54,568 nucleotides of DNA from Balneolaceae bacterium (GTDB taxonomy: Bacteria; Bacteroidota; Rhodothermia; Balneolales; Balneolaceae). Positions 33,774-38,717 of this stretch are shown in pieces (the first letter of the stretch is position 1; each line of letters begins with the position of its first letter). The position numbers and the translations under genes are program-made. The notes beneath the pieces were generated by a model, which searched no databases, was not told where the DNA came from, and saw nothing but the letters and a program-made list of their open reading frames with translations. Location of the stretch: NCBI GenBank assembly GCA_020832415.1, contig JAFIES010000093.1, positions 1-54,568 on the forward strand, read 5' to 3'.

Positions 33774-35615
33774 TTGAATCAAACAGGAGACATCGGGCAG
33801 TCCATTATCAGGACCATGCCCCCCGAACTATTCAACAAAATTGCAGCAGGCGAGGTTATACAACGCCCGGCTTCCGTTGCCAAAGAACTACTCGATAACG
33901 CCATCGATGCAGGAGCCGACCGCATCAAACTGATTGTGCAGCAGGCCGGCCGAACACTTGTTCAGGTGATCGACAATGGCTGTGGGATGTCGCAGGCGGA
34001 TACCCGGCTCTGTTTTGAGCCCCATGCCACATCAAAAATTCAATCGATTGAAGATCTTTACCGGGTACGAACCATGGGCTTTCGGGGTGAGGCGATGGCG
34101 TCGATTGGCTCCATTTCGCAGGTGGAAATGAAAACCAAACGGGTTGAAGACGATTCGGGTACGCTGCTTGAACTTTGGGGAGGAGAAGAGAAACGGTTTG
34201 AACCGGTAGCGGTTGATGATGGGACCTCAATTGCCGTTCGCAACCTTTTTTACAATGTTCCGGCACGCCGTCAGTTTTTAAAGACCGATGCAACCGAGCT
34301 TCGTCATATCATCAGAACTTTTCAAACCGCAGCACTTGCAAACACAAATATAGAATTTGAGATGCATGCCGATGGAGAACAGATCCACCATCTGCCGGTG
34401 CAAAAACTTGAACAGCGGATTGCATCCCTTTTTGGCAAACAGTACAAAGCCAGCCTTATTCCGTTTGAAGAGCAGACCAGTTACGTGAAAATCAGCGGTG
34501 TTCTGGCCGACCCGAAACTTGCCAAAAAAAGCCGGGGTGAGCAATTTCTTTTTGTTAACGGTCGCCCGTTTCAGCACCGGTATTTAACGTATGTGCTGCT
34601 CAGCCTGTTTGATACATGGACCCGACAAAATGAGTACCCGTTTTATGCCATCTTTTTTGAAATGGACCCTACTCAGCTCGATGTAAACGTGCACCCAGCC
34701 AAACTGGAAGTGAAATTTGATGATGAAAAAAGCATCATTCAGCTGGCACGCTCGGTAGTGAAAAAGGCGATTAACCAATATTTTGCGGTGCCTGATGTTA
34801 GCAGGTCCGATACGTTTCAGAATGATTTTGATCTCTCATTTGAGCGAATATCAGGAAGTCCTTCTCAAAAGAGTAATTTTCGAAGAGGGGAAGAGCCGGT
34901 TCAGTTTCCATCCAGGATCAATTTTCCATCAGGCCGGGTTGATGGTGACGATGCAGCCGAACGATTATATAGTGATTCAGGCCGGTCAATTCAATCAGAA
35001 TACAGAAAAACTGATTCATCAACTGATACTGAACGAGGCCAAAAAGAGTTTTCAGAGCGGGGATTCTGGCAGCTTCATAACCGGTATATCCTTACGCAAA
35101 CACGATCCGGATTAACCATTATTGATCAGCATACAGCTCACAAACGTATTATCTACGAAAAAGCGCTGAGTGCAACCGAGGAAACGTTGCCCGGTACCCA
35201 GCAGCTTCTGTTTGCCCAGACAGTAGAACTCTCAGCTACCGATTTTTCGCTGCTGAAGGAGTTGTTGCCGATCATTTTACGAATGGGATTCAGTATTCAG
35301 CTTTTGAGCGGAAATACAGCCATTATCAATGGTGTTCCTGCCGATATTGAAATTGGGGATGAGCGCCAGGTACTGCGCGAAATGCTGCAGCAGTATAGAG
35401 AACTGAATAAAAGACCGGCATTGGATGCCCGCCGAAAAGTGGCTATCGCATTTGCATCGCGCACGGCTATCCCGCGAGGCAAGCGGCTCACTGAGGCAGA
35501 GATGGAGATGCTGATCGATCAGCTTTTTGCATGCGAAGAACCCTACTCAGACCCGCTCGATAAGCCCACCCTTATCTATATGCCGATGGATGATATCAAA
35601 AATCGGTTCAGGTAG
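33774..35615 (+). CDS. mutL: DNA mismatch repair protein MutL
   Basis: GHKL ATPase that links MutS to downstream mismatch-repair steps. The N-terminal ATPase motifs are intact: KIAAGEVIQRPASVAKELLDN, DNGCGMS and TMGFRGEAMASI, then NVPARRQFLK. The transducer domain follows, a low-conservation linker (about 340-430), and the C-terminal dimerisation domain. The metal-site motif of endonuclease-type MutL, DQHA(x2)E(x4)E, reads DQHTAHKRIIYE (from residue 451): Lys replaces the first Glu. The distal CPHGRP-like motif reads DPLDKP near 593. Nuclease activity is therefore doubtful. The length of 613 residues is normal. TTG at 33774 is the only start that preserves the residues before IAAGEV; an ATG at 33816 would trim them. 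Confidence 0.95.
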   Translation: MNQTGDIGQSIIRTMPPELFNKIAAGEVIQRPASVAKELLDNAIDAGADRIKLIVQQAGRTLVQVIDNGCGMSQADTRLCFEPHATSKIQSIEDLYRVRTMGFRGEAMASIGSISQVEMKTKRVEDDSGTLLELWGGEEKRFEPVAVDDGTSIAVRNLFYNVPARRQFLKTDATELRHIIRTFQTAALANTNIEFEMHADGEQIHHLPVQKLEQRIASLFGKQYKASLIPFEEQTSYVKISGVLADPKLAKKSRGEQFLFVNGRPFQHRYLTYVLLSLFDTWTRQNEYPFYAIFFEMDPTQLDVNVHPAKLEVKFDDEKSIIQLARSVVKKAINQYFAVPDVSRSDTFQNDFDLSFERISGSPSQKSNFRRGEEPVQFPSRINFPSGRVDGDDAAERLYSDSGRSIQSEYRKTDSSTDTERGQKEFSERGFWQLHNRYILTQTRSGLTIIDQHTAHKRIIYEKALSATEETLPGTQQLLFAQTVELSATDFSLLKELLPIILRMGFSIQLLSGNTAIINGVPADIEIGDERQVLREMLQQYRELNKRPALDARRKVAIAFASRTAIPRGKRLTEAEMEMLIDQLFACEEPYSDPLDKPTLIYMPMDDIKNRFR

Positions 35616-35752: not shown

Positions 35753-36883
35753 GTGAACATACTTGCAGTTGAACCATTTTATAACGGATCGCACCGGGCT
35801 TTTTTGAAAGGGCTTCAGGAGAATTCCCGCCATAACATCATTCCCATAAAACTGGATTACCGGCGCTGGAAATGGCGTATGCATGGCGATTCTGTGAAAC
35901 TGGCTGAGATGTCAGCCGAAATCAATGAAGAGATCGATCTTCTGCTGGTGAGCAGCATGGCGAACTTGCCGGCTTTTCTTGCACTAACCAATCCCCGGTT
36001 TGCACACACTCCCAAGGTGATGATGATGCATGAAAATCAGCTTACACAGCCGATGCCTGAGGGAGAGGAACGCGATATTACCTACTGTTATGTGAATTAT
36101 ATCAGTATGCTTTCTGCTGATAAATTGATCTTTACTACGAAATTTCACCTGAATGATCTGCTTGAAGAGCTTCCGAAATTTCTGGAGAATTTTCCGGATG
36201 ACAAACATTACAAAACCGTTGATCAGATTCGGGAAAAAAGTTTGGTGATGTACCCCGGACTGGATCTCTCTGTTTTTGATAAACAACCCGACACCCGTAA
36301 GAATAATAACCGTCCTGTGATTGTGTGGAACCAGCGCTGGCAGTTCGACCGGAACCCTGCCATGTTTTTCAAAGTGCTGAACCGACTGAACGATATTGAC
36401 CTGGAATTCGACCTGATTCTTGCCGGAGACTCACAGCATAAAAAACCCGAGGAGTTCGAAAAAGCGTGGAAACGGTTTGGTGATCAGATTACCCATTTCG
36501 GTTATGTTGAAAATGTTGAGAACTACAGCAAACTGCTGCATTCAGGTGATATTGTGGTTTCAACGGCTACGCATGAATTTTTCTGTGTGGCGATTATGGA
36601 AGCGATCTATTGCGGCTGCCATCCACTTGTTCCAAACAGCCTTCACTACCCCGAGCTTATTCCTGACTCCCTGCATAAACCATTGCTGCATGCTCCGGTA
36701 ATCTATGAGACGGAGGATGATCTTTTTCATGCCCTGAAAGATCTGCTTACAGGTAAAACGCAGCCGCTTCCTAAGGCATCATTGCAGAACATCAATAAAC
36801 ATCTCGACTGGAGCCGGATGATTGATCGTTATGATTCACTGTTTGACCAGCTCAAAAAAACGAAAAGCCTGGCTGCATTTTAG
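35753..36883 (+). CDS. GT-B glycosyltransferase, tRNA-queuosine alpha-mannosyltransferase-like (DUF3524)
   Basis: A 376-residue cytosolic protein whose opening matches the DUF3524/GTDC1 family: EPFYNGSHRAF, then HENQLTQP near residue 98, ERDITYCYVNYIS, and WNQRWQFDRNP near 192. The second domain has the GT4 pattern (DLILAGDS near 222; STATHEFFCVAIMEAIYCGC near 273, where the E-x7-E donor-binding pair lies). Vertebrate GTDC1 is the tRNA-queuosine alpha-mannosyltransferase, adding mannose to queuosine in tRNA-Asp. A bacterial homologue may glycosylate queuosine or another nucleoside, or a different acceptor; this is unproven. Start GTG. It is 137 bp after mutL and not obviously linked to queuosine genes in this window. 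Confidence 0.85.
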   Translation: MNILAVEPFYNGSHRAFLKGLQENSRHNIIPIKLDYRRWKWRMHGDSVKLAEMSAEINEEIDLLLVSSMANLPAFLALTNPRFAHTPKVMMMHENQLTQPMPEGEERDITYCYVNYISMLSADKLIFTTKFHLNDLLEELPKFLENFPDDKHYKTVDQIREKSLVMYPGLDLSVFDKQPDTRKNNNRPVIVWNQRWQFDRNPAMFFKVLNRLNDIDLEFDLILAGDSQHKKPEEFEKAWKRFGDQITHFGYVENVENYSKLLHSGDIVVSTATHEFFCVAIMEAIYCGCHPLVPNSLHYPELIPDSLHKPLLHAPVIYETEDDLFHALKDLLTGKTQPLPKASLQNINKHLDWSRMIDRYDSLFDQLKKTKSLAAF

Positions 36884-37205: not shown

Positions 37206-38717
37206 TTAGAAGGGGGCTTCATCATCCCCGCCGGGAATGTGTGGTGGCGGAGGTGGCAGCGCAGCATTAGATTCAGCAGGTTCATTCAGAAAATCGTTAC
37301 CACCGGGCCCCGACTCTACTCTCGAGAGGCGTTCAAAACGGGCATACTCTTTCACAAAGAACATTCGGGTTGAACCAACAGGCCCGTTACGCTGCTTCCC
37401 GATAATTAACTCAGCAAGACCGTTGGTCGATTCACCCTCGGGTGTTGTCGTAATACCATAATATTCAGGCAGGTAGAGGAAACAGACCACATCGGCATCC
37501 TGCTCAATAGAGCCTGATTCCCGCAAGTCACTAAGCTGAGGCCGTTTGTCTCCGCCACGCTGCTCAACCTGACGGCTAAGCTGAGACAGTGCAATCACAG
37601 GAACATCGAGTTCTTTGGCAAGAGATTTGAGACCACGCGAGATGGTGGCAATTTCCTGCTCCCGGTTCCCGATATCCCGGGAACTTGCTGTCATCAGTTG
37701 GAGATAATCAACCACCACAAGCCCAATATCGTGCTCACTTTTTAGCCTTCTGCACTTGGTTCGCAGTTCCATTAAGCTAAGGCTTGGCGTATCATCAATA
37801 AAAATCTTGGCGGTAAAGAGGCGGCTGGCCGCATCAATAAGTCGTTTAAAATCCTCATCCTTCACTTTTCCCGTTCGGGCAGATTGAGCATCTACACGGG
37901 CCTCCATCGTTAGAAATCGCTGTACAAGCTGCTGTGCAGACATCTCAAGGCTGAAAATAGCCACATTGGTCTGCAGATTTTCATTGGGATGGAGAGCAGC
38001 GTTACGGGCTGCAGTAAGAGTGAATGCTGTTTTACCCATCGACGGACGAGCTGCGATGATAATCAAATCACCTCTTTGCCAGCCGGAGGTGTATCGGTCA
38101 ACATCGAGGTTACTCGGAACCCCGGTTACACCTTCTGGTTTGCCGCGAAGTTCTTCAAGATAGCCGAGGGTATCTGTAAGAATATCGCCGATAGCTGTAG
38201 CCTGTGCACGTGATTTTGTGTTGGCAATTTCAAATATTCGCTGTTCCGCTCCGTCCAGTACATCATTTGCATCGGTGGTTGTATCGTATGCCGATTTAAT
38301 AATCTCATTGCAGTTCAGAATCAGGTTTCGTTTGATCGCCTTCTCTGAAATAATCTGTGAGTGATAATCGATATTTGCTGCAGAACTAACAGAGCGTGTC
38401 AGGTCGGCGAGGTATCCGGTGCCACCAACAGTGTCGAGGAGATTCTTATCACGAAGTTCGTTCTCGATAGTAAGCAGATCGAGTGGATTGCCCCGCTCAT
38501 AGAGATCGAACAGGGTTTCGAAAATGTGGCGGTTTGCCGGTTTGTAGAAATCATCCGGCTTCAGAAGCTGAAGGGCAATTGTTGCCGCTTCACGTTCAAT
38601 AAGCATGGCACCGAGCACGGCTTCTTCAACCTCAACAGCCTGCGGGGGTACACGTCCGCCATCCTGGCGATTGGGTTGAGAGTTGATTTGTGAGTCAGAG
38701 CCGTTACTGTTGGGCAT
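37206..38717 (-). CDS. dnaB: Replicative DNA helicase DnaB
   Basis: Hexameric helicase that unwinds the replication fork and recruits primase. The N-terminal domain begins PPQAVEVEEAVLGAML; the RecA-like domain has Walker A ARPSMGKT at 223-230, Walker B LVVVDYLQLM near 333, and the arginine-finger/DnaB signature SQLSRQVEQRGGDKRPQLSDLRESGSIEQDAD near 380-410. The C-terminal tail is proline-rich (PPPPPHIPGGDDEAPF), a feature of many Bacteroidota DnaB proteins. The length of 503 residues is standard and there is no intein, although this site is a common intein location. The start is ATG. The repeat block lies right after its stop. Confidence 0.97.
   Translation of the reverse strand: MPNSNGSDSQINSQPNRQDGGRVPPQAVEVEEAVLGAMLIEREAATIALQLLKPDDFYKPANRHIFETLFDLYERGNPLDLLTIENELRDKNLLDTVGGTGYLADLTRSVSSAANIDYHSQIISEKAIKRNLILNCNEIIKSAYDTTTDANDVLDGAEQRIFEIANTKSRAQATAIGDILTDTLGYLEELRGKPEGVTGVPSNLDVDRYTSGWQRGDLIIIAARPSMGKTAFTLTAARNAALHPNENLQTNVAIFSLEMSAQQLVQRFLTMEARVDAQSARTGKVKDEDFKRLIDAASRLFTAKIFIDDTPSLSLMELRTKCRRLKSEHDIGLVVVDYLQLMTASSRDIGNREQEIATISRGLKSLAKELDVPVIALSQLSRQVEQRGGDKRPQLSDLRESGSIEQDADVVCFLYLPEYYGITTTPEGESTNGLAELIIGKQRNGPVGSTRMFFVKEYARFERLSRVESGPGGNDFLNEPAESNAALPPPPPHIPGGDDEAPF

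Follow-up and report, generated by a model that had tools for sequence, protein, structure and literature searches.

A gene in a contig of a Balneolaceae bacterium was found to encode a glycosyltransferase of the QTMAN family, and we lean towards the view that the enzyme transfers a sugar, probably mannose, to queuosine 34 (Q34) of tRNA in this organism. The window referred to below is the whole stretch of 54,568 nucleotides that was analysed (contig JAFIES010000093.1, assembly GCA_020832415.1). The protein would act as a cytosolic, retaining GT-B (GT4) enzyme. Its donor would be an NDP-sugar, with GDP-mannose the likeliest, and the sugar would be attached to one of the cyclopentene hydroxyls of Q34 in a GUN-anticodon tRNA. 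The acceptor could be tRNA-Asp as in mammals or tRNA-Tyr as in mosquito.

Human QTMAN is described as linking alpha-mannose to Q34 of tRNA-Asp through the allylic 3-hydroxyl (PMC12518689), and the rat-liver enzyme is reported to accept GDP-mannose (PMC4425180), which we counted in favour of transfer to Q34. In Aedes aegypti, mannosyl-queuosine (manQ) is reported on tRNA-Tyr (PMC11705514) and the tRNA acceptor can therefore differ between lineages. The mosquito finding also makes too narrow the statement in an earlier note on this DNA that sugar-modified queuosine is known mainly from vertebrates.

Domain organization and conserved motifs

The features of the window that are needed here are as follows (coordinates, strand, feature and basis).

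33774..35615, plus strand: mutL, upstream neighbour (Pfam)
35753..36883, plus strand: QTMAN-family GT4 glycosyltransferase, 376 aa, GTG start (ORF and Pfam)
35756..36262, plus strand: QTMAN_N domain (PF12038), residues 2-170 (Pfam)
35771..35794, plus strand: EPFYNGSH motif, residues 7-14 (alignment)
36029..36043, plus strand: HENQL motif, residues 93-97 (sequence and alignment)
36326..36340, plus strand: WNQRW motif, residues 192-196, at the start of the C-terminal GT4 domain (sequence and alignment)
36575..36601, plus strand: E275-x7-E283 (alignment)
37206..38717, minus strand: dnaB, convergent downstream neighbour (Pfam)

The open reading frame was found to be complete. Its QTMAN_N domain matches all of the Pfam profile (positions 1-168 of 168) with 165.3 bits and an E-value of 1.4e-48, where the cut-off is 25 bits, and judged by sequence this match is far from chance. 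C-terminal to it lies a Glycos_transf_1 domain (PF00534; 45.5 bits, E 7.6e-12). The protein is a GT-B/GT4 glycosyltransferase of the QTMAN family and so belongs to an already known family. The homology to tRNA-queuosine mannosyltransferase proposed in the earlier note was borne out by the full-length domain, and the three motifs that it had listed (EPFYNGSH, HENQL and WNQRW) are all present. In addition, the catalytic-type residues E275 and E283, which were observed to be invariant across 25 aligned sequences, form an EX7E motif, by which GT4 enzymes that retain configuration are recognised. With a pI of 6.0 the protein is mildly acidic, which counts against a tRNA substrate carrying Q34.

Predicted structure

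An AlphaFold2 model built from 25 sequences has a mean pLDDT of 84.1 and a pTM of 0.80, and 401 PDB chains were found to match it at a Foldseek E-value of at most 0.001. The best structural alignment is with sucrose-phosphate synthase (SPS; Z 29.0, rmsd 3.3 over 335 residues), while the matches also include PimB' (Z 25.3) and PimA (Z 24.1), whose structures were determined with GDP-mannose. For the model, these Z values show a GT-B fold and not a function. No PDB chain matches the protein by sequence in a phmmer search at E <= 1, and a profile search of the PDB returned one partial C-terminal match (E 0.0032).

Distribution and phylogeny

The QTMAN_N domain was found in 66 genomes of a phylum sample of 247, and these comprise all 62 genomes of the window's class and 4 of the 185 outside it. 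Across the whole class set it is present in 225 of 244 genomes and in 156 of the 162 of good quality (completeness of 90% or more, contamination of 5% or less). The gene is therefore a near-universal, mostly single-copy trait of the class. None of 14 control genomes has the domain, though nine of them have QueA. Relatives at 59-99% identity were observed in 67 named loci, of which 60 come from records titled as Balneolota members and seven from records titled Bacteroidetes, Chitinophagaceae or Rhodothermia. Searches of phages, plasmids and viral contigs gave no QTMAN-family relative; in one of them seven stretches matched the pattern and none was confirmed.

A tree of 67 rows, which uses 22 of the 67 named loci and from which six short ORFs and repeat copies of the same gene were dropped, divides into two well supported clades. 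The topology of clade I (48 rows, including the window) largely tracks the family codes, and its members seem to have been passed on vertically. In clade II (19 rows), the second paralogue of 15 genomes from the window's family groups with the four copies from outside the class, and the internal order of this clade is unsure because of long branches. Among 244 genomes of the class, 27 gave two domain matches, and family f1 accounts for 16 of these and f45 for 11; a 28th genome with two matches, G404, looks like a case of a split gene.

The clade II rows (L069-L075, L077, L079-L081, L085-L088, L115-L117 and L122) show near-fixed differences from clade I, among them E275D, S270V, A224L and H263W, with Asp replacing E275 in most of them. 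On sequence grounds, these differences suggest a second specificity. Furthermore, the HENQL and GSH motifs are altered in families f6 (L118, L119) and f5 (L113) despite the presence of TGT, QueA and QueG; altered forms of HENQL include RKNPL in G018 and HNNRL in G013. The NG86 omega of the f6 copies is 0.091.

Genomic neighbourhood

Sixty-two loci were entered in the neighbourhood comparison and 58 were compared, four having lost the gene in greedy gene picking. At the 48 clade I loci, the MutL cluster (cluster 1, named by its place in the window) lies within five genes 30 times and the DnaB cluster (cluster 2) 24 times, and several Balneolaceae loci have other neighbours. Neither cluster was observed at any of the 11 loci from class families outside the window's order. 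The adjacency to mutL to which the earlier note drew attention is thus present in the window, but it is synteny of the window's order that is not common to the other class families compared. We rejected it as a functional clue and infer no functional link of the gene with mutL or dnaB.

Nineteen neighbour clusters inspected by eye include ComF-like, isocitrate dehydrogenase-like and ABC ATPase-like proteins among others, and neither a queuosine-pathway gene nor a polysaccharide gene cluster was recognised among them. Cluster 19, a GT2 gene which by eye resembles dolichol-phosphate-mannose synthase, is found near the gene in three class loci (L112, L130 and L132). This could hint at a role with a lipid-linked sugar and counts against the Q34 reading. 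A similar GT2 gene (L136:1621-2346) adjoins tgt in the window's genome.

Probable queuosine supply in the host

The window's genome encodes TGT (530 bits), QueA (424 bits) and QueG (359 bits, 315 aa), each above its NCBIfam equivalog cut-off, and QueH was not found there. With these three enzymes, Q34 is probably made in the window's organism. A lack of queuosine, which the earlier note had set against its own proposal, is thus not what the host's genes indicate.

The co-occurrence with tgt, queA and queG that the note had suggested checking holds in the host but barely discriminates across the phylum sample, where QueA is present in 246 of 247 genomes and QueG in 63 of 66 carriers of the gene versus 171 of 181 non-carriers (Fisher p = 1). 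Both being near universal, we regard them as uninformative. For TGT, the domain was found in 11 of 13 TGT-negative versus 145 of 149 TGT-positive class genomes of good quality (Fisher p 0.07). The window's genome has two QueA-like genes (G000:C116:2356-3387 and G000:C95:76383-77360; L168 and L181), both above NCBIfam QueA cut-offs, and two QueA matches were observed in 35 of 35 genomes of the window's order in the phylum sample.

GluQRS scores above its cut-off in six of the 62 class genomes (G096, G167, G179, G219, G231 and G246), all six with the QTMAN-family gene, and in one of 185 elsewhere; below the cut-off it is not told apart from GluRS and GlnRS. Mutual exclusion of the two enzymes was considered as evidence for tRNA-Asp and rejected, as six of the seven genomes above the cut-off carry the gene. 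Where they share a genome, the two enzymes would compete for Q34 of tRNA-Asp or serve different tRNAs.

Retention of the gene in a genus without detectable TGT

TGT was matched in 212 of the 244 class genomes and in 149 of the 162 of good quality, twelve TGT-negative genomes having been identified by their absence from the TGT match rows. The 13 misses of good quality consist of six scattered drafts, in which they are probably assembly gaps, and seven genomes from the Salinibacter-like genus g20 of family f10, which includes G147 (presumably Salinibacter ruber DSM 13855). Among the 13 genomes of g20, ten gave no TGT match (seven of good quality and three only 62-83% complete), two gave a full match and G388 a weak one. 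In G147, G195 and G199, the three tested in this way, there were 1, 0 and 0 TGT candidates with no match, and QueG and QueH were undetected. Furthermore, a search for a plasmid-borne TGT showed no Salinibacter among 60 of the 67 matching plasmid records.

Eight of the ten TGT-negative g20 genomes still match the QTMAN-family gene. Seven of these copies were examined and six are intact (G147, G199, G387, G392, G393 and G395), while the G195 copy (L141) is disrupted by a frameshift and a stop codon. G396 (93% complete) and G391 (83% complete) lack the gene. Counting good-quality genomes only, one copy is broken and one missing among the seven TGT-negative g20 members, versus 4 of 149 TGT-positive class genomes that lack the gene.

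One-ratio GY models gave an omega of 0.044 for five TGT-less genomes and the same value for five TGT-bearing relatives, a set that is much more diverged (tree length 8.4 versus 2.7), and the comparison with omega = 1 also had kappa fixed at 2. These codon sets omit G393 (TGT undetected, 62% complete), G195 (broken), G388, G377, G378, G381 and G389. Pairwise NG86 values range from 0.074 to 0.136 within the TGT-less five, while the closest TGT-bearing pair gives 0.046 and pairs that involve G388 give 0.15-0.25. Most of the TGT-less values lie near those of mixed pairs, though above that of the closest TGT-bearing pair.

In 51 clade I rows taken as background, 87 sites were found to be invariant when a single exception was tolerated; this set leaves out f5, f6 and those g20 rows that lack a full TGT, and its TGT status is known for part of the rows. 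Only one of these sites, H14, is replaced in all six rows of the S. ruber group, where it is Arg. Among rows with a residue there, His occupies the position in 50 of 50 from the clade I background and in 17 of 17 from clade II. However, G393, in which TGT was undetected, still has H14, and the residue is replaced by Arg in f5 and by Tyr in f6, both of which have TGT. This mismatch argues against a simple link of the H14 replacement with loss of queuosine.

QueA is also retained in g20, with the G147 copy scoring 398 bits against an NCBIfam cut-off of 324, and its omega is 0.030 in the TGT-less group versus 0.021 in relatives. Of 63 QueA sites that do not vary among E. coli and 14 TGT-bearing genomes, 14 are changed in one or more of the seven g20 rows (L171 and L174-L179), and T180, T211 and S336 are changed in every one of the seven. 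As the QTMAN-family gene and QueA both outlive a detectable TGT, either TGT is replaced or undetected there, or both enzymes have another job; in the Salinibacter-like group, queuosine synthesis follows a route that escaped notice or the enzyme has acceptors besides queuosine. The different acceptor that the earlier note had offered as an alternative therefore gains ground at least in this sister lineage, where most copies are intact and constrained, but the window's host has TGT, QueA and QueG.

Alternative explanations

For the Q34 reading we counted the QTMAN_N match, the GT-B fold shared with PimB' and PimA, the presence of TGT, QueA and QueG, and the class-wide presence of the gene, together with a tree that largely follows family codes, neighbours that vary between families, the lack of a recognisable polysaccharide cluster among those inspected and the absence of relatives on the mobile elements searched. 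Against it stand the retention of gene and omega without TGT in g20, QueG co-occurrence at background level and GluQRS in 6 of 62 genomes. Alternatively, the gene might encode a common GT4 enzyme that makes lipopolysaccharide, exopolysaccharide or a small glycoside of the thiol type and is misnamed after QTMAN. GT4 folds are alike, MshA, BshA and SPS are among the structural matches of the model, NCBIfam models for BshA and EPS enzymes match weakly, each with a score well under its cut-off, and a GT2 gene lies nearby in three loci. We consider this improbable in view of the specific QTMAN_N domain, absent from the control genomes, its near-universal and mostly single-copy presence in the class, a tree that largely tracks taxonomy and the lack of a recognised polysaccharide cluster in the neighbourhoods inspected.

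The g20 genomes bear on two further readings. TGT may have diverged or been replaced there, in which case queuosine synthesis would continue and the enzyme would simply glycosylate queuosine in all lineages. This is a serious possibility although we put it below an even chance; the retained and constrained QueA and the weak TGT match in G388 (E 4.7e-10) speak for it. On the other side, TGT scores above 500 bits among the matches listed and gives E-values of 5e-151 and 5e-150 in two g20 species, and the three genomes searched for candidates yielded neither a TGT match nor QueG or QueH. The enzyme may instead act on a small molecule or on a tRNA nucleoside other than queuosine, Q34 being at most one of its substrates, and work without queuosine in the Salinibacter-like group. 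We think this unlikely but well worth considering, as eight of the ten TGT-negative genomes keep the gene, six of seven copies are intact with the low omega found for five, H14 alone among the 87 sites is replaced throughout the S. ruber group, and QueA is altered as expected if queuosine synthesis were gone. The same QueA is nevertheless kept and constrained, so that an unseen or replaced TGT is possible; the broken copy in G195 and the missing one in G396 suggest that the gene may matter less without TGT; and the H14 replacement does not follow TGT status in f5, f6 and G393. The likelihoods that we attach to these readings and to the Q34 reading do not sum to one because a missed TGT is compatible with the latter.

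A broader and rather doubtful conjecture is that the QTMAN family is at root one of nucleoside glycosyltransferases with acceptors beyond queuosine. The class might then have an undescribed glycosylated nucleoside, the H14R enzyme and altered QueA of the S. ruber group might represent a queuosine-independent modification after TGT loss, and the two paralogues found in part of the Balneolaceae might serve different tRNAs or sugars.

Significance

Since most of the class carries the gene, including some members in which TGT was not detected, a sugar modification not yet on record may exist in bacteria. With named Rhodohalobacter and Balneola strains in existence, a class that keeps the enzyme would give practical access to sugar-modified queuosine, and the bacterial enzyme could bear on the origin of the animal one. 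In the Salinibacter group, nature offers a way to ask if queuosine is required by the enzyme at all. Zhao et al. (Cell 2023) are said to have named QTMAN and may mention bacterial homologues. Among the matches listed in the literature searched, we recognised no report of manQ or galactosyl-queuosine (GalQ) in bacteria or of a bacterial QTMAN. The relevant passages of a 2020 review place ManQ and GalQ in eukaryotes and not in bacteria (PMC7694415), and the corresponding part of a 2026 lectin-based study describes glycoRNA in E. coli without a queuosine result (PMC12873605). Hexosyl-queuosine is reported to be tracked by the transition 572.2 to 163.1 (PMC8654956).

Comparison with known systems

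The predicted enzyme shares the GT-B fold with PimA and PimB' but only 15-16% identity, and the acceptors of those enzymes are phosphatidylinositol-type lipids. QTGAL (B3GNTL1), which glycosylates Q34 of tRNA-Tyr in animals, offers a parallel in the proposed substrate and is a member of a different glycosyltransferase family. GluQRS (YadB) likewise modifies Q34 further, acting on tRNA-Asp in bacteria (PMC3542578), but by aminoacyl rather than sugar transfer, and it coexists with the QTMAN-family gene as noted above. The closest counterpart is animal QTMAN (GTDC1), to which the window protein is likened by domain: both have the N-terminal domain that bears the family's Pfam name and a C-terminal GT4 domain, and the host is expected to supply Q34 as substrate. 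The putative activity differs from that of the animal enzyme in being bacterial, in a gene that outlives detectable TGT in a sister genus and in the second paralogue carried by part of the family.
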